Shown in pieces: positions 1 to 8,901 of a DNA stretch of 42,729 bases. Made by a program: the position numbers and the translations under genes. Position 1 is the first letter of the stretch; each line of letters starts with the position of its first letter. The stretch is from Geminicoccus sp. (GTDB lineage Bacteria > Pseudomonadota > Alphaproteobacteria > UBA7985): NCBI GenBank assembly GCA_002705565.1, contig PAHJ01000154.1:12516-55244 (forward strand), written 5' to 3'. The notes beneath the pieces were generated by a model, which saw nothing but the letters and a program-made list of their open reading frames with translations, had not been told where the DNA came from and searched no databases.

Positions 1-2006
1 ACAGCAACGATGGTCAAAAAGGCCGCGACGCCCATGGAAATCGCAGGCACTTTGTAGTTTTTTAGACTATCGCGGAAATAGGCGGATAGCTGCTTGGGTG
101 CATCGCCATTGCCCATATCGGGAAACGCCTTGCGCAACAGGTTTGCAGCTTCAGAGGACACCGCCCTAGACACACCAAAGGGCACCTGGCCATCGGCGAC
201 CTGACGGATCGCACGGTCGTAGGAGAACGACAAAGCCAGGTAGGACTCCCGTTTCAGCAGGCCGTCTACGGTCGAGACCGCACGGTCCAGATCTCCCGAT
301 GCTGGTAGCTCTCTGATTGCGTTGAGCTGGGATTCAAGGTCTGGCGCGGTTTGGATGATCGCAAGGTTGTCGGCAAAACGCGCGTTGATGTCCGCCTCAA
401 AGAACGGCTGGTACAGCGACTGTAGCGCAGCGATTTTTCCACCAAGCAGGTCGGCCCGGGCTTGCATTTCGATCGCGGCGCCGTCCGGGTCATCCTTGAA
501 CTTTCGGAGGATCGACTTCCGGCGCGCCTTCGAAACGGTCGAGGCATAGTCTTCTGCCACCAGTTTGTAGGGGGCGAAATCAAACTCCTTGTCGGCCCGG
601 TTTACCAGCCTTTGGACCGCTTGACCGCGTGGCGCGCCTTTGACTGCAGCCGTCAGTTCGGCAAGGGTATTGGCGCCCTTCGCGCGCTCCAGCACGTCTT
701 GATACTGCGTGGCCGCATCGGCGCCCAGCATGGCATCAATCGACAGGGCGAAGCGCTCAATCCCGCGCAGAAGAGAGGATTTGCGCTCACGGAATTCGAC
801 GACGCGCAACGTCTCGACAATCATGTCGCCATTAACCCCGTCCACCATCGCGTCCACTCGCGATTGCAGATCATCGGGGACAGACTTCCCGCGAGACAGG
901 AGGGCCGTGTAATCCTGCAGGTCGGCAAAGTCGACCGCGTCCATCGCGCCAGAAGGACGAGCACGCTCGATTTCTTCGAGCAAGGCTTGCGTGTTGGCAA
1001 ATTCCAGAGCGTCCTGCGGCGGCTTTTGCGAGCCCACGAAACCGGCAAAGGCAGCCAGCACCCAAACCGCAATAAAGCCTATCGCCGGCAGGGCAATGGC
1101 ACTCGCCGCGCGCCCGGGGGAGCGACCATAGTCGCCCAACAGGTCATAGGTGTTGGCGTCGAGATTCTGCTTGATCGGCGGCGCAGCCTGAGGCCTGAGC
1201 AGCGCGTACCCCAGCGCATAAGCGGCGTAAAGCAGAGCCAGGACGATACCGGGGATGAAGGCAGCTTTGAAAAGCGTCCCCGTCGAGATCGCAATATCGT
1301 CGCCCAGCAACTCAGGCAGCGGTATCCCCAGATCCTGCGAGCGGCTCTTCTGTGCCGAGGAATAAATATCCCCGACCATGGAGCCTAGCAGCACCAGAAC
1401 GATCGACGGAGGAATAATCTGCCCCAACGTGCCAGAGGTCGCGATGACACCGGTGGAAAGCTCCTTGGAATAGCCTGCGCGCAACATGGTGGGCAGCGAG
1501 ATCAATCCCATGGTCACAACGGTGGCGCCGACAATTCCCGTCGAAGCCGCCAGTAAGGCTCCCACCAAAACCACCGAAACAGCCAGACCGCCGGGCATGC
1601 CGCCAAACAGGCGCCCCATAGACGTCAGCAGTTCTTCGGCGATCTTAGAGCGCTCCAGCGCGATCCCCATTAAGACGAACAATGGGACGGCAAGCAGCGT
1701 GTCGTTCTGGTTTTCACCGAAGGCGCGTGAGTAGTTATTGTTGCTCCATTGGGCGAGCGTATCCAATCCCTTTTGCCAGGCCGGACCGTTGAATATCTCA
1801 TGGTGCGCCGCAAGCAGCGGTTTGAGTTCACCATCATATTCCACCAGCAACCAGCCCAGTTCCGAGCCGATTGCGATCAGAATGAAGCTGATAATGGCCG
1901 AGCCCGATAGCGCAAAGGCCACGGGGTAACCAGAAAGAATAGCCATGAACAGCGTCCCGAAAACGATGAACAGGCTGAGCTCGACGCCGTCTAATCCAAA
2001 GAGCAT
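1..2006 (-). CDS. dctM: TRAP transporter large permease (DctM family) with large internal insertion, 3' end outside window
   Basis: This is the 12-TM-type subunit that carries substrate through the inner membrane in a TRAP (tripartite, Na+-coupled) transporter. The frame stays open from the ATG at 2006 to the left edge, giving 668 visible residues and no stop. DctM hallmarks are clear: hydrophobic helices at about residues 12-47, the PLFVLMG segment near 107-113, the GTLGQIIPPS re-entrant motif near 192-201, and further helices at 243-270 and 300-325. Family members are usually about 425-450 residues in total. Here a hydrophilic, largely helical stretch of about 325 residues (roughly 328-652) interrupts the protein before membrane segments resume near 654. 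An extra stretch of about 50 residues also lies at 50-100. The gene starts 31 bases after the small-permease stop, so it is the third gene of the operon. Family assignment is secure; the role of the insertion is unknown. Confidence 0.9.
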   Translation of the reverse strand, partial: MLFGLDGVELSLFIVFGTLFMAILSGYPVAFALSGSAIISFILIAIGSELGWLLVEYDGELKPLLAAHHEIFNGPAWQKGLDTLAQWSNNNYSRAFGENQNDTLLAVPLFVLMGIALERSKIAEELLTSMGRLFGGMPGGLAVSVVLVGALLAASTGIVGATVVTMGLISLPTMLRAGYSKELSTGVIATSGTLGQIIPPSIVLVLLGSMVGDIYSSAQKSRSQDLGIPLPELLGDDIAISTGTLFKAAFIPGIVLALLYAAYALGYALLRPQAAPPIKQNLDANTYDLLGDYGRSPGRAASAIALPAIGFIAVWVLAAFAGFVGSQKPPQDALEFANTQALLEEIERARPSGAMDAVDFADLQDYTALLSRGKSVPDDLQSRVDAMVDGVNGDMIVETLRVVEFRERKSSLLRGIERFALSIDAMLGADAATQYQDVLERAKGANTLAELTAAVKGAPRGQAVQRLVNRADKEFDFAPYKLVAEDYASTVSKARRKSILRKFKDDPDGAAIEMQARADLLGGKIAALQSLYQPFFEADINARFADNLAIIQTAPDLESQLNAIRELPASGDLDRAVSTVDGLLKRESYLALSFSYDRAIRQVADGQVPFGVSRAVSSEAANLLRKAFPDMGNGDAPKQLSAYFRDSLKNYKVPAISMGVAAFLTIVA

Positions 2007-2037: not shown

Positions 2038-3282
2038 CTAAGCCGAGCCCAAAGTGGGTCGGCTGGCGTTGGTTGAAGTGGTGGAAGCATCGATGGCAGC
2101 ATCTGCCGTGGCGTGTTCGATGGCTTGGGCGGTTAGGTCCTCAGCGCTGGCTTCGTCGCTGTTCGCGGCTTCGTCTCGCAGCCTGCGCTCATGCTCCGCG
2201 TCCGAGGTTAGCCCCTTGTCCAGACTGGAAAACAGGAACCCCACAGCCTGGATCAGCATCAGTGCCGCCAGAACCAGAATGAGCAGATAGTAAAGCGGCA
2301 CGTGACTGAAGTTCTCACCGGTCGAGGTGTTCCAGTTGATTTGCTTGAAGCTGGATGCTCCCGGAATCCGACCATCAAAGTTCCGCGTCAGAATGAGTTC
2401 GGTGAGCGGATTGAAGGACGTGATCTGGAATATCTTGTTCATGGCCAAGTGCCAGGACACCCACCACAGCCCTACCATAGAAGGCATGAGGAAAATCAGG
2501 GTGCCAACCACATCGATCCAGTGTTTCACGCGGCGACTCATCGCGCCATAAATCAGGTCAACGCGGACATGACCTTCGTCCATAAAGGTGTAGGCGCAGG
2601 CAAAGGCGATGATGATGGCATTGTACAGCATAAGCTCGGTGGCAAACCATGGCATGGTCACAACGTCATCGCCGGGAACCAGCTCCAAGCCAAAGAAGGA
2701 GATTGGCAAGCCGTTGGCTCGAAACACCTGCTGGAGAAAGATGATGATGATCTGCTGAAAGGCCATCAGCAGCACGAACCAAGATGCGAGCTTGCCCAGC
2801 GTTCCGTTGAAGACATTAATGCCGCCCGCCACGCGACGCAGGATCGGGCGGTAAAACAAGCCTGCGACCAGCAAGCCGAGCGCCAGCGCAAAAATCATGA
2901 AGAAAAAGTCGGCCGACTTGCCGAATATCAGCGCGTTGACGATGTACTCGTCCGCCGGAAACTCAACAACCAGAGCCCGAAGGCGCGCGTACTCCAAAAG
3001 ATCCATGCCATTGCCGCTCACAGAGCCCGCGTCGATCGCAGCTTGTGCGGCGCCAAGCAGATCAGGCTGCTTTTTCAGTATGGCGTCAAAGGCTGACAAA
3101 TCGCCGTTTTCGGTCAGCTTAGCCGTCAGCGCTGCCAATTCTGGCGCAGCCGCGGCGGCGCGCTCGTCGGCTGTCATAATGCCGTAGACCCAAGCAGCGG
3201 CCTTGTAGGGCGCGAGGACCAGGTTGACAAAACCTTGAGCTATAGCGGTCAACAACGACCAAATTCCAGTGAGAACAGCCAT
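2038..3282 (-). CDS. dctQ: TRAP transporter small permease (DctQ family), enlarged
   Basis: This is the small membrane subunit that pairs with DctM in a TRAP transporter. The DctQ core lies at about residues 165-350: a helix near 165-186, the segment with FMDEGHVRVDL near 233-243 (typical of the mannitol/chloroaromatic-type subgroup), and helices near 257-280 and 330-352. The protein has 414 residues against roughly 160-200 for ordinary DctQ. The excess is an N-terminal extension of about 160 residues (amphipathic start, an alanine-rich helical stretch at 38-105, an extra membrane segment at 124-146), loops at 186-212 and 282-328, and an acidic, Ala/Thr-rich tail after 355. The ATG at 3282 has only a weak AAGG element upstream. 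It sits between the receptor and large permease genes. Family identity is secure; the extensions are unexplained. Confidence 0.88.
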   Translation of the reverse strand: MAVLTGIWSLLTAIAQGFVNLVLAPYKAAAWVYGIMTADERAAAAAPELAALTAKLTENGDLSAFDAILKKQPDLLGAAQAAIDAGSVSGNGMDLLEYARLRALVVEFPADEYIVNALIFGKSADFFFMIFALALGLLVAGLFYRPILRRVAGGINVFNGTLGKLASWFVLLMAFQQIIIIFLQQVFRANGLPISFFGLELVPGDDVVTMPWFATELMLYNAIIIAFACAYTFMDEGHVRVDLIYGAMSRRVKHWIDVVGTLIFLMPSMVGLWWVSWHLAMNKIFQITSFNPLTELILTRNFDGRIPGASSFKQINWNTSTGENFSHVPLYYLLILVLAALMLIQAVGFLFSSLDKGLTSDAEHERRLRDEAANSDEASAEDLTAQAIEHATADAAIDASTTSTNASRPTLGSA

Positions 3283-3540: not shown

Positions 3541-4638
3541 TTAGCTGCCCAGAACGCGGTCACGCTGTGCGGTGTACTGACCAGCAGAGCGGGAAATCCA
3601 GCCCGACGAAGCGGCCATGGAAGAGCTGAAGCTGTCGTAGCAACGCTTGAACAGATCGTCGTCCATGTTTTCGTCAAACACTTCCTGAGCAGCTGCGCCA
3701 AAGGCATCCCAAACATCATCCGGGAAGGCGAGTGCGCGAGTACCACCAGCAATCAGACGCTCCAAAGCAGCGCCGTTGTTAGCGAGGTACTGAGCGTGCG
3801 ACCAGAGGTTCGCCTCAGCACAAGCAACTTCGATTGCAGCCTGGTTGGTCTCGGACAGAGCGTCCCAGCGATCGAGGTTCATTGCGAACGACAGAGCTGC
3901 ACCTGGCTCGTGGAAACCAGCGGTGTAGTAGATGTTGGTTGCTTCTTGGAGACCCAGGGACTCATCAGAAGCTGGGCCAATCCACTCTGCGCCATCAATG
4001 GAGCCGGACTGCAGCGCCTGGAAGATCTCGCCACCAGCCATGGTGATCGAAGATGCACCAAGCTTGGAAATCACCTTGCCGCCCAGACCAGGCATCCGGT
4101 ACTTGAGGCCTTCGAAATCAGAAGCGGAGTTGATTTCCTTGCGGAACCAACCGCCTGCCTGCGTGCCAGTGTTACCTGCCAGGAAGCCCTTCAGACCGAA
4201 TTCTTCACCGATCTCATCGTACAACGCGCGACCACCCATGTGGTACATCCAGTTGTTGATTTCCTGAGCCGTCATTCCGAATGGAACAGCGGTAAAGAAC
4301 GCAAACGCTGGGTGCTGGCCAATGTAGTAGTAAGCAGCAGCGTGGAATGCATCAGCGGTGCCAGAAGTCACAGCATCGAAAGCAGCCTGCGTACCGGAAA
4401 CCAGTTCGCCATTCGCCTTCAGATCAATTTCCAGCGTACCGCCGGTGATCGCAGCAACATTGTCGGCAACGCGCTGTGCAGCATCGTGCACACCAAAGGA
4501 GCCGCGCCCCCAGGTCGTCACCATGGTTACTTTCTCACGGCTCTGCGACAGAGCTGGAGTTGCGAGACCGGTTGCGGCCGCTGCGCCAGCAGCAACACCA
4601 GCTACGCCTGCGCCTTTAAGAAACTCGCGACGTTTCAT
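3541..4638 (-). CDS. dctP: TRAP transporter periplasmic substrate-binding protein (DctP/TakP type)
   Basis: This is the soluble receptor that captures substrate in the periplasm and hands it to the DctQM permease. I place the start at the ATG at 4638, just after a strong GGAGG ribosome-binding site, giving 365 residues. It opens with MKRREFLKGAG, a twin-arginine-type signal, followed by a hydrophobic Ala/Gly-rich stretch and a TPALSQS-like cleavage region. Family features include YRMPGLGGKV (with the conserved Arg that usually holds the substrate carboxylate), GGEIFQALQSGSIDGAEWIGP and FHEPGAA. This layout resembles the 2-oxoacid receptor TakP and the mannitol/chloroaromatic subgroup more than C4-dicarboxylate DctP. 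It is the first gene of the minus-strand operon and divergent from a two-component system. The exact substrate is not proven by sequence. Confidence 0.92.
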   Translation of the reverse strand: MKRREFLKGAGVAGVAAGAAAATGLATPALSQSREKVTMVTTWGRGSFGVHDAAQRVADNVAAITGGTLEIDLKANGELVSGTQAAFDAVTSGTADAFHAAAYYYIGQHPAFAFFTAVPFGMTAQEINNWMYHMGGRALYDEIGEEFGLKGFLAGNTGTQAGGWFRKEINSASDFEGLKYRMPGLGGKVISKLGASSITMAGGEIFQALQSGSIDGAEWIGPASDESLGLQEATNIYYTAGFHEPGAALSFAMNLDRWDALSETNQAAIEVACAEANLWSHAQYLANNGAALERLIAGGTRALAFPDDVWDAFGAAAQEVFDENMDDDLFKRCYDSFSSSMAASSGWISRSAGQYTAQRDRVLGS

Positions 4639-4919: not shown

Positions 4920-6281
4920 ATGGGATTTAAATTAAACCTGCTCCTGATCTCGGTCATTCCGATCCTGTTGTTCACAGCCGCAATGATTGGTGTTGTCACA
5001 CAACAGACCACGACCTTGTCCGCCGAACTGGGTTCTTTGATCGAAGAACGCCTAGTCTCGGACAAGCGAACTGCACTGACCAATTATGCAGAATTGGCCG
5101 AATCTGCCATTCGGCCGTTGGTCGACCAATCCAGCGGGACGGCGATCGAAGCCCAGCAGCAGGCCAGAACCGTCATCAACGCCATGACCTTTGGCGAAGA
5201 CGGTTATTTCTACGTCTATGACTACGACGGAACCAATTTGGTGCACCCCAGGCTAACAAACCTCGTTGGACAGAACCTCTGGGACTTGCAGGACCCAAAC
5301 GGCAATTTCGTCATCCAAGGGCTGATTGAGCAGGCGCGTGCCGGTGGCGGCTTTCACTCCTATATATGGAATAAACCCTCAACCGGGCTGGAAGAACCAA
5401 AAATTGGGTTTGCAACAGGGATCGACACTTGGGGCTGGATGCTGGGAACGGGCCTCTATCTCGATGATATTCGCGGTGAACTTGATCTGGTGAACGCCAC
5501 CATCGGGCGAACCGTGCAGCGTTCGTTTCTTTGGGTTATGGCCTTTGGCCTGCTTGCCGTCCTGTTGGCAGCGATTGTTGTTTATGCCTTCCAACACAAC
5601 CTGCAACGGACTGCTGACGAAAAACTTAAAGCGTTGAACCGCCGGATCGTTGAGATCCAGGAAGAGCAATCCCAGCGCATTTCGCGAGACCTGCACGACG
5701 GCATATCCCAGTTGCTGGTCCTAACACGCTATTCACTAGAAGCGGTTGAAGCTGAACTTGATCCGGCACAGACGGAGCAAAAAGCCACACTAAGCCGGTC
5801 CCGCGGGACCCTGGACCGTGCTTTGACCGAGCTGAGCTCGATCGCGCGGAACCTACGGCCTCCCGCACTGGACCAACTGGGGCTGCAACAGGCCCTCATG
5901 TCCCTGATCGAGGACTATCAGGCGCAATCCAAGCTCAAGGTATTTGCCGATATCGAAGCGCTGGGCGACAAGCTTACGGAAGCGGGCAAGTCGGCGTTGT
6001 TTCGCGTAGCGCAAGAGGCACTGACCAACATCTCTAAACACGCCGAAGCTGAACGGGTTTGGATCACATTGAAGGTGCGAGGCCGGTCTGTGCAACTGAC
6101 GGTCGAAGATGACGGCCTGGGGCTGAAGACACAGCAGCAAGGAGGCCTTGGCATCGCCAACATGCGCGAACGCCTCGCCTCGCAGGGCGGACGGCTGCTG
6201 CTTCGCACCCTGACAGAAGCCGGCACTGGAACCATCGTGACCGGCATCATCCCGCTCAGTCGTGAGGTGGTAAGCCGATGA
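4920..6281 (+). CDS. Cache-domain sensor histidine kinase (HisKA_3/NarL-partner type)
   Basis: This is a membrane sensor kinase that should detect a small ligand outside the inner membrane and phosphorylate the regulator encoded next. The layout is: TM helix at about 3-27; periplasmic sensor (28-198) with the single-Cache signature GYFYVYDYDG and later WGWMLGTGLYLDD; second TM at about 200-224; a linker; the HisKA_3 H-box SRDLHDG with His259; and a HATPase_c domain with an N-box around Asn370 and G-boxes EDDGLGL and GGLGIANMRER. Single-Cache domains of this kind often bind C2-C4 carboxylates, which fits the divergent TRAP operon. Its stop overlaps the regulator start (ATGA), so the two are translationally coupled. 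The ATG at 4920 lacks a strong ribosome-binding site. Confidence 0.93.
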   Translation: MGFKLNLLLISVIPILLFTAAMIGVVTQQTTTLSAELGSLIEERLVSDKRTALTNYAELAESAIRPLVDQSSGTAIEAQQQARTVINAMTFGEDGYFYVYDYDGTNLVHPRLTNLVGQNLWDLQDPNGNFVIQGLIEQARAGGGFHSYIWNKPSTGLEEPKIGFATGIDTWGWMLGTGLYLDDIRGELDLVNATIGRTVQRSFLWVMAFGLLAVLLAAIVVYAFQHNLQRTADEKLKALNRRIVEIQEEQSQRISRDLHDGISQLLVLTRYSLEAVEAELDPAQTEQKATLSRSRGTLDRALTELSSIARNLRPPALDQLGLQQALMSLIEDYQAQSKLKVFADIEALGDKLTEAGKSALFRVAQEALTNISKHAEAERVWITLKVRGRSVQLTVEDDGLGLKTQQQGGLGIANMRERLASQGGRLLLRTLTEAGTGTIVTGIIPLSREVVSR

Positions 6282-6859
6282 CCATTAACGCCATAATCGC
6301 TGACGATCACGAATTGGTTCGCGAAGCGCTGTACGTGCGGCTCAAGAAGATGGACGTGCAAATTGTCGCGGAAGCTTGCGATGGTGCTCAGGTTGTTGAA
6401 TTGGCGGAAAGTGTGGCTTTCGACCTGATCCTGATGGACATCTCAATGCCTGTGTTGAATGGCGTCGAAGCGACAAGGCTTATCAAGCAGGCCGATCCAT
6501 CGCGTAAAATCCTCGTTCTCTCAACACACGACAGTCAGAGCTACATCCGCGCCGTCGCATCCGCAGGTGCCGATGGTTACCTACTCAAATCAGCCGACTT
6601 CGAAGAAATGCAGCGCGCGGTGCAGGTCGTGGCGATGGGGGGGTCCTACTATGCTGACACGGTCAAAGAGAAACTGTTCGGCGATCGCGACTTCTCCGAC
6701 GAAAAATTCAACACTCTAACCCACCGCGAGACGGAGGTGCTTCGAATGATCGATCAGGGCCTGCGTTCCAAGGAAATTGCCCATCGCCTGAACATTTCGC
6801 TTCGAACCGTCGAAGCCCATCGACGCAACTTAAACCGGAAAATTGGCAGCAAAGCCTGA
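6278..6859 (+). CDS. NarL/FixJ-family response regulator
   Basis: This DNA-binding response regulator is the partner of the overlapping sensor kinase. The receiver domain (about 1-120) has the acidic pair DDHE near 9-12, the phospho-acceptor Asp54 in LILMDISMP, a Ser/Thr in VLSTHD and the conserved Lys in YLLKS. The C-terminal LuxR-type helix-turn-helix begins at LTHRETEVL and includes SLRTVEAHRRNL. At 193 residues the protein ends a few residues after NRKIGSKA, slightly short: most relatives carry another 10-15 residues finishing the last helix. I checked the next reading frame and found no LuxR continuation, so a simple frameshift is unlikely. The likely target is the divergent TRAP operon (inference from position). 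Confidence 0.93.
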   Translation: MTINAIIADDHELVREALYVRLKKMDVQIVAEACDGAQVVELAESVAFDLILMDISMPVLNGVEATRLIKQADPSRKILVLSTHDSQSYIRAVASAGADGYLLKSADFEEMQRAVQVVAMGGSYYADTVKEKLFGDRDFSDEKFNTLTHRETEVLRMIDQGLRSKEIAHRLNISLRTVEAHRRNLNRKIGSKA

Positions 6860-7682: not shown

Positions 7683-8231
7683 ATGTTCAGGCTCTTTATT
7701 CGGATTGAAAACAACTGGCCCTGGGCCTTCCCGCTGGTGATTCTTTCGGCCTGCGTGTTCTTCCTGGGCGTTGCATTGATCTCTCAATACATCGGCGGCC
7801 ATCACCCCTGCACCCTGTGTATCGCCCAGCGCACGTCCTATGTTGTCGCGGCTATCGTGTCTGGCGCTGCAATGGTGATTGGTCGGCGGCCAGAGCGGCA
7901 CGTCGAGCGGGCCATGCTGCTGGGCGTATGTGGGCTTGCTTTCCTATATGGCTGTGCAACCGCGTTTGAACACGTCGGTGTTGAACAGGGTTGGTGGCCA
8001 GGCGACGTCCTCTGTTCAGGGTCGATGACCGCTTTTGGACTTGATAAAGAAGGTCCCGGCCTGCCGGTTAATCCGCTGTTCAACGTGCCTGAAGTCACCT
8101 GTTCCAAAGGTACTTGGGCGCTGTTTGGCCTGTCGATGGCGACCTATAACTTGCTCGCCAATCTTGGTCTGATGGTTCTCTCGACCCTGATCGCTACACG
8201 AGGCCTGCAGCGCTTCCGCAAGGCGGACTAA
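7683..8231 (+). CDS. dsbB: Disulfide bond formation protein B
   Basis: An inner-membrane quinone reductase that reoxidises the periplasmic thiol oxidase DsbA and passes electrons to ubiquinone. The 182-residue protein has four predicted TM helices. The first periplasmic loop carries the redox pair in HHPCTLCIAQR (about residues 40-50). The second loop has the other two cysteines, at DVLCSG and EVTCSKG, as in DsbB. The stop codon overlaps the stop of the convergent HNH gene by four bases. No dsbA is visible in the window. Confidence 0.93.
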   Translation: MFRLFIRIENNWPWAFPLVILSACVFFLGVALISQYIGGHHPCTLCIAQRTSYVVAAIVSGAAMVIGRRPERHVERAMLLGVCGLAFLYGCATAFEHVGVEQGWWPGDVLCSGSMTAFGLDKEGPGLPVNPLFNVPEVTCSKGTWALFGLSMATYNLLANLGLMVLSTLIATRGLQRFRKAD

Positions 8232-8794
8232 TCCCGTTCGAGTTCGGAATCCCAGTACAGGTAATCTTCCCAGCTCTCATGCAAGAAATTCGGAGGAAAA
8301 GCCCGGCCGGCATCCTGCAGCTGATAAGCTGTCGGGCGCAGAGGCTCCTTCCGCAACCCCATGGCGCTGTCCCGCAAGTACCGATTCCCCTTCCGCAGGT
8401 TACACTTCTGACAGGCGGTCACGACATTTTCCCAACTCGTACCACCGCCTTTGGAGCGAGGGATTACGTGATCAAAGGTCAGGCTTTGGACTGGAAAGCG
8501 GGTACTGCAATATTGGCAACGGAAATGATCGCGGAGAAACACGTTGAACCGGGTAAAGGCCGGCGAGCGGTTCATGGGAACGTAGTCTTTGAGCGCAATC
8601 ACGCTGGGGATGGGCATTTCGAATGACGGGCTGCGGATCACATGATCGTATTCCGCCACAACGTTCACACGCCCCTGAAAGCAGGCTTTCACCGAATCCT
8701 GCCAATTCCAAAGCGACAGCGGCAAATAGGATAAAGGCCGAAAATCGGCGTTCAAAACCAATGCCGGATAGTTCTCTAGACTGTGCGCTCTCAT
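8228..8794 (-). CDS. HNH endonuclease-family protein
   Basis: A 188-residue protein with a zinc-stabilised HNH domain. The core lies at about residues 85-145: a CxxC pair in FRCQYCSTRF, the DHVIPRSKGG stretch with the catalytic-type Asp-His, a WENVVTACQKCNLRKGNR segment with the second CxxC and the conserved Asn, and a Lys/Arg-rich end. I prefer the ATG at 8794 because a GGAG lies five bases upstream; a TTG three codons further upstream is less likely. Proteins of this form are common single-copy genes in alphaproteobacteria and are not tied to an intron or phage. There is no mobile element next to it. The cellular role is unknown. Confidence 0.88.
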   Translation of the reverse strand: MRAHSLENYPALVLNADFRPLSYLPLSLWNWQDSVKACFQGRVNVVAEYDHVIRSPSFEMPIPSVIALKDYVPMNRSPAFTRFNVFLRDHFRCQYCSTRFPVQSLTFDHVIPRSKGGGTSWENVVTACQKCNLRKGNRYLRDSAMGLRKEPLRPTAYQLQDAGRAFPPNFLHESWEDYLYWDSELERD

Positions 8795-8901
8795 TCTCTC
8801 CAATCCCTTCCGACTGACACGGAAGCTATGAAGCGACTATGACAAGCGAATGACGAGAGGACAAGTAATGCGCGTATAATGTTTCACACCGTCGCACCTG
8901 A

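Follow-up and report, generated by a model that had tools for sequence, protein, structure and literature searches.

The window opens with a gene for a DctM/TakM-type protein, the large permease of a DctP-type TRAP importer. In this permease, four extra membrane helices separate the two halves of the ordinary DctM core and enclose a soluble, all-helical domain of about 325 residues. By the window we mean the whole stretch of 42,729 nucleotides that was analysed (G000:C28:12516-55244). The domain is predicted to be periplasmic and may serve as a docking device for the substrate-binding receptor of the importer.

The window starts inside this minus-strand gene and holds its 5' two thirds (1..2006, residues 1-668 of 1055), the remainder lying on the same contig just before the window. 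As an earlier note on this DNA had read it, translation from 2006 down to 1 runs through 668 residues and meets no stop, and both motifs that it placed in the first half, PLFVLMG and GQIIPPS, are present. Completed from the flanking DNA, the full dctM has 1055 codons (L002:4839-8006, minus strand). Pfam DctM (PF06808) matches the 1055-residue protein in two stretches split by the insert (E 1.1e-58), and with 199.5 bits over both halves, against a gathering score of 23.8, the protein belongs to this family. Its TIGR00786 score of 240.8 bits stays under the cut-off of that dctM subfamily (268.45), as does the score of the neighbouring DctM of ordinary length, 530 residues (215.9). A DctP-family receptor encoded together with unfused Q and M subunits places the system among the DctP-type TRAP transporters.

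The window's own assembly has nine ambiguous bases at L002:5820-6000, just outside the window. Unbroken frames of 1054-1055 residues, free of ambiguity, are found in MED834 (L007), a CAJQLX bin (L008) and Geminicoccus sp. SP156 (L009), and the proteins of these three sister species are 79-89% identical to that of the window. Because these relatives have unbroken frames, the 1055-residue dctM is not an artefact. The fusion of two genes by a sequencing error, named earlier as a possible refutation, or a frameshift, is ruled out by the same frame in the three sister species, so that four species carry the block in frame.

Membrane segments and topology were derived from our own hydropathy scan and from homology. 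The scan predicts 18 segments in the 1055-residue DctM, and the only loop longer than 60 residues spans residues 322-658, in agreement with the boundaries of about 328 and 652 first proposed for the soluble block. The TRAP large permease does carry a large soluble helical domain, flanked on either side by a membrane helix; this domain lies outside the Pfam DctM model and does not align with ordinary DctM, end-to-end alignment having been the other refutation named. When 38 DctM frames from 31 loci are aligned, the window protein departs from the compact ones by a module between the two halves, made up of helix A, the soluble block and helices B-D (approximately residues 654-732). The earlier description of an inserted soluble domain was therefore right about the block and incomplete about the membrane, as four membrane segments were added with it. 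On the minus strand of the window, the first half of the ordinary core, with both motifs, occupies 1107..2006 (residues 1-300, from Pfam and the alignment). It is followed by segment A at 1044..1100 (residues 303-321, from hydropathy), the soluble domain at 51..1025 (residues 328-652) and the start of segment B at 1..47 (residues 654-668), with segments C and D outside the window. A further two-helix stretch lies at approximately residues 786-890, and the neighbouring 530-residue paralogue also has one in some form.

The DctMs of this subfamily fall into length classes of 470-621, 685-700, 784, 1054-1055 and 864-888 residues. Of 385 alphaproteobacterial genomes sampled from the class, at least 29 have a match at E <= 1e-60, a count limited to the top two candidates of each genome. 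The 470-621 class comprises compact DctMs, including neighbouring paralogues. The four-helix module, with segment A, is also present in the 685-, 700- and 784-residue DctMs of other Alphaproteobacteria; it is missing from the 864-888 class, which has a C-terminal domain instead. Among the module-bearing DctMs only the A-B loop is expanded, from about 20 residues to about 80 and then to 325 (19-24 residues in the 685-700 forms, 82-86 in the 784 forms and, measured as the whole loop, about 336 in the 1054-1055 forms). The 784-residue proteins (L044-L049), with their approximately 80 residues in the A-B loop, come from two families. Their TM2-TM3 loop is also longer, at 80 residues versus 49-58 in the other module-bearing forms.

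In a tree built on 511 core columns, with the insert left out, all 15 module-bearing proteins group in a single clade (support 100/99). Within it, the 700-residue proteins are the sister group of the 1055-residue ones (99/99); the forms with the C-terminal domain make up a separate clade (100/100). A long-branch warning applies elsewhere in the tree, including the node where the module clade meets the neighbouring paralogues. On the basis of this clade and of the sister position of the 700-residue forms, the four-helix module most likely arose first and the soluble domain later. In the ancestor, helices A-D would have been added between the last helix of inverted repeat 1 and the first helix of repeat 2, and in this genus the A-B loop would then have grown into the helical domain. 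A second, compact TRAP cluster lies directly downstream of the long gene, just outside the window (L002:1279-4893). It encodes a TakP-like receptor, a 270-residue DctQ and the 530-residue DctM, a distant paralogue that in each of the four species is the neighbour of the 1055 form.

Which side of the membrane the domain faces can be judged from solved relatives. The available excerpts of PMC9971032 give SiaM as N-out/C-out and SiaQ as N-in/C-in, and those of PMC9352664 describe the two hairpins as not spanning the membrane. Counting from an N-out SiaM, the loop after TM6 is cytoplasmic and helix A leads out, therefore the A-B loop should be periplasmic. The distribution of charge points the same way: the A-B loop of the five 685/700 forms has 0-1 K/R in its 19-24 residues, compared with 2-5 K/R in the TM6-A loop of every one of the 15 module-bearing proteins. 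Positive charge is only modest in the B-C loop, which has 0-3 K/R, and none at all in two of the six 784-residue proteins. Helix counting and charge together strongly suggest that the soluble domain is, very probably, periplasmic. If it were cytoplasmic instead, it could regulate the elevator from inside, and the insertion site in ordinary DctM is indeed a cytoplasmic loop, by counting on the excerpted accounts in PMC9971032 and PMC9352664. However, hydrophobic segment A precedes the domain, three more such segments follow it, and in the short forms the charges put the A-B loop on the outside, which makes a cytoplasmic position improbable.

The insert was found in four of the six genomes of the genus; the two genomes without it are 63% and 79% complete and have no A1 match at E <= 1e-40. 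It is absent from the five other genomes of the order, and among the 385 class genomes it occurs only in the two drawn from this genus, in answer to the suggestion that the segment be searched alone for restriction to one clade. A scan of genome contigs returned only the three records of the sister species (L007, L008, L009). No match was found in viral contigs, and no plasmid record covers 80% of any of three DctM queries. Pfam gives only scattered sub-threshold matches, a PDB search gave a best E of 0.15, and the open-licence papers searched yielded no DctM with such an insert or added helices. The domain thus appears to have no recognised relative and, so far, to belong to one small marine genus. 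Structure prediction, which had also been suggested, was run with AlphaFold2 on four sequences and makes the insert almost all helix at a mean pLDDT of 50, against 35 for the full-length protein; at these values the models speak to helix content only and lend no support to a fold or a contact. There may be a weak internal repeat, with copies at 591..800 (residues 403-472) and 264..473 (residues 512-581), both on the minus strand. Comparison of these pieces gives an hhalign E of 0.0028, with 0 of 100 shuffles reaching the score, but the pieces were chosen after looking, and in an unbiased self-comparison 4-22 of 100 shuffles reach the score.

The insert evolves faster than the core, at 63-82% identity versus 91-97% for residues 1-300. 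Such divergence, along with the lack of recognisable relatives, is what would be expected of a near-neutral, fast-growing loop without a dedicated function. Nevertheless, the insert is under purifying selection: dN/dS for residues 328-652 is 0.05-0.17 in six pairs, a rough figure as dS is near saturation, its length is steady at 323-324 residues, and all four sequences have no cysteines. We therefore regard a functionless loop as very improbable. In the same analysis, likewise with dS near saturation, residues 1-300 have a dN/dS of 0.01-0.05, and helices B-D are the least constrained at 0.13-0.34 (one pair being pN/pS).

The small permease gene of the same operon, dctQ, lies at 2038..3282 on the minus strand (Pfam DctQ, E 2.1e-8) and encodes 414 residues. 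DctQ has 410-420 residues in this genus versus 269-325 in the 11 other module-bearing loci, and most of the additional length comes from a loop of about 85 residues that links the N-terminal hydrophobic helix to the next helix (approximately residues 35-120; 2923..3180, minus strand), followed by further short additions. This loop, predicted to be periplasmic by the N-in rule, is found in all three complete DctQ proteins that accompany 1054/1055 forms and in none of the DctQs of the 11 other four-helix loci; at the fourth 1054/1055 locus the contig stops 374 bases past the start of dctM, leaving no complete DctQ. With M and Q both expanded in the same genus, and with four extra membrane helices that already suggest an altered scaffold, the periplasmic domain might serve assembly or oligomerization, the M and Q domains holding Q to M, or two transporters together, with no receptor contact. 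We consider this unlikely, though far from negligible, as the solved relative is a monomeric elevator in the excerpted text of PMC9352664.

Upstream of dctQ, a gene at 3541..4638 on the minus strand encodes a TakP-like, DctP-family receptor with a Tat-type signal (E 3e-70 to TakP over 344 residues). It retains the alpha-keto-acid ligand residues of TakP, Gln156, Arg177, Glu214, Trp215 and Glu240, and the substrate of the importer is thus probably alpha-keto acids. The receptor extends into the region of the C-terminal swapped helix of TakP (326-365), with the alignment stopping at TakP 345. Its divergently transcribed neighbour is an sCache_2 sensor histidine kinase (4920..6281, plus strand), followed by a NarL/LuxR-type response regulator (6278..6859, plus strand). 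Two further genes of this region are a DsbB-like protein with weak family scores (7683-8231, plus strand) and a 191-residue HNH-type protein (8228-8803, minus strand), probably an ordinary small HNH endonuclease, whose NCBIfam matches to parts of IscB/Cas9d are all below the cut-off.

The kinase and regulator also stand beside the receptor gene in L069, and their homologues do so at four of the six loci with a 784-residue DctM (L045, L047, L048, L049). It could be, then, that the domain binds some other periplasmic partner, such as peptidoglycan, an outer-membrane porin or the adjacent sensor kinase itself, and thereby tethers the transporter or reports on transport. As the same kinase pair accompanies the 784 forms with their loop of about 80 residues, the kinase does not require the domain, and the insert has no Pfam match above the cut-off; we think another partner of this kind quite unlikely.

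We tentatively favour a receptor-docking clamp, a reading to which we give somewhat short of an even chance, on the grounds of the position of the domain and of analogy with MalF-P2 and the VcGluQM claw. In this mechanism, the M domain and the expanded DctQ loop would together make up a clamp, or a platform for docking, and keep the TakP-like receptor, probably as a dimer, over the transporter. In the model of a docked TakP dimer in the excerpts of PMC9352664, the second monomer points upwards and would therefore come within possible reach of the M and Q domains. Compact TakM-like permeases of 518-600 residues stand beside TakP-like receptors without any such domain, thus the domain is not needed for transport in general. 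If these domains do dock the receptor, loops of about 20, about 80 and 325 residues on one core would form a natural comparison set for asking how TRAP receptors engage the elevator and drive its movement.

A second helical domain has been added to DctM elsewhere in the Alphaproteobacteria. The 864-888-residue proteins end in a helical domain of about 340 residues (the last 315-339 residues in L052, L053, L054, L056-L059 and L061), without a name in Pfam and, by C-out topology, presumably periplasmic. Its profile matches 35 of the 385 class genomes at E <= 0.001. Of these matches, 30 reach E <= 1e-20 and lie in frames of 838-960 residues; the other five are weak (E 3e-5 to 7e-4, frame lengths 163-615 residues) and were not counted. 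Like the insert, it is a helical soluble domain of more than 300 residues on a DctP-type TRAP permease. Unlike the insert, it is C-terminal and has two invariant cysteines in all eight sequences. Comparison of the two domains gives suggestive motifs that are not significant by hhalign (E 0.02, probability 2.4%, with 1 of 60 column shuffles reaching the score), and hmmsearch gives no significant match between them. It is conceivable, although on balance doubtful, that helical clamps in the periplasm have evolved more than once as a built-in part of DctP-type TRAP transporters, as M insert plus Q loop or as C-terminal M domain, with the receptor kept anchored instead of shuttling.

Compared with canonical DctM/SiaM (PF06808; SiaM, PDB 7qha), the window protein shares both halves with their motifs, and the operon likewise has separate genes for DctQ and a DctP-family receptor. 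It differs in its 1055 residues against approximately 430, in the four added helices and the 325-residue domain between the halves, and in the two-helix stretch that follows. The receptor resembles that of TakPQM of Rhodobacter sphaeroides (TakP, PDB 2hzk/2hzl), with the ligands of both cation and carboxylate conserved. This likeness covers the receptor TakP alone. In the maltose ABC importer, the P2 region of MalF is a large periplasmic insertion in the permease that meets the binding protein MalE; it belongs to an unrelated transporter superfamily, and for our insert receptor contact is only inferred. None of the four inserts matches DUF3394 in Pfam at E up to 10. This is the family of the claw of VcGluQM, a TAXI-type TRAP transporter, which in the available part of PMC11574862 is likewise a soluble periplasmic domain on extra permease helices, proposed to stabilize receptor docking. 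That claw, as described there, has a mostly beta structure and sits in a fused TAXI permease, between its last two helices, whereas the insert is all-helical and internal, in an unfused DctP-type permease. A clamp holding a dimeric TakP-like receptor, if that is what the domain forms, would be convergent with both MalF-P2 and the TAXI claw.
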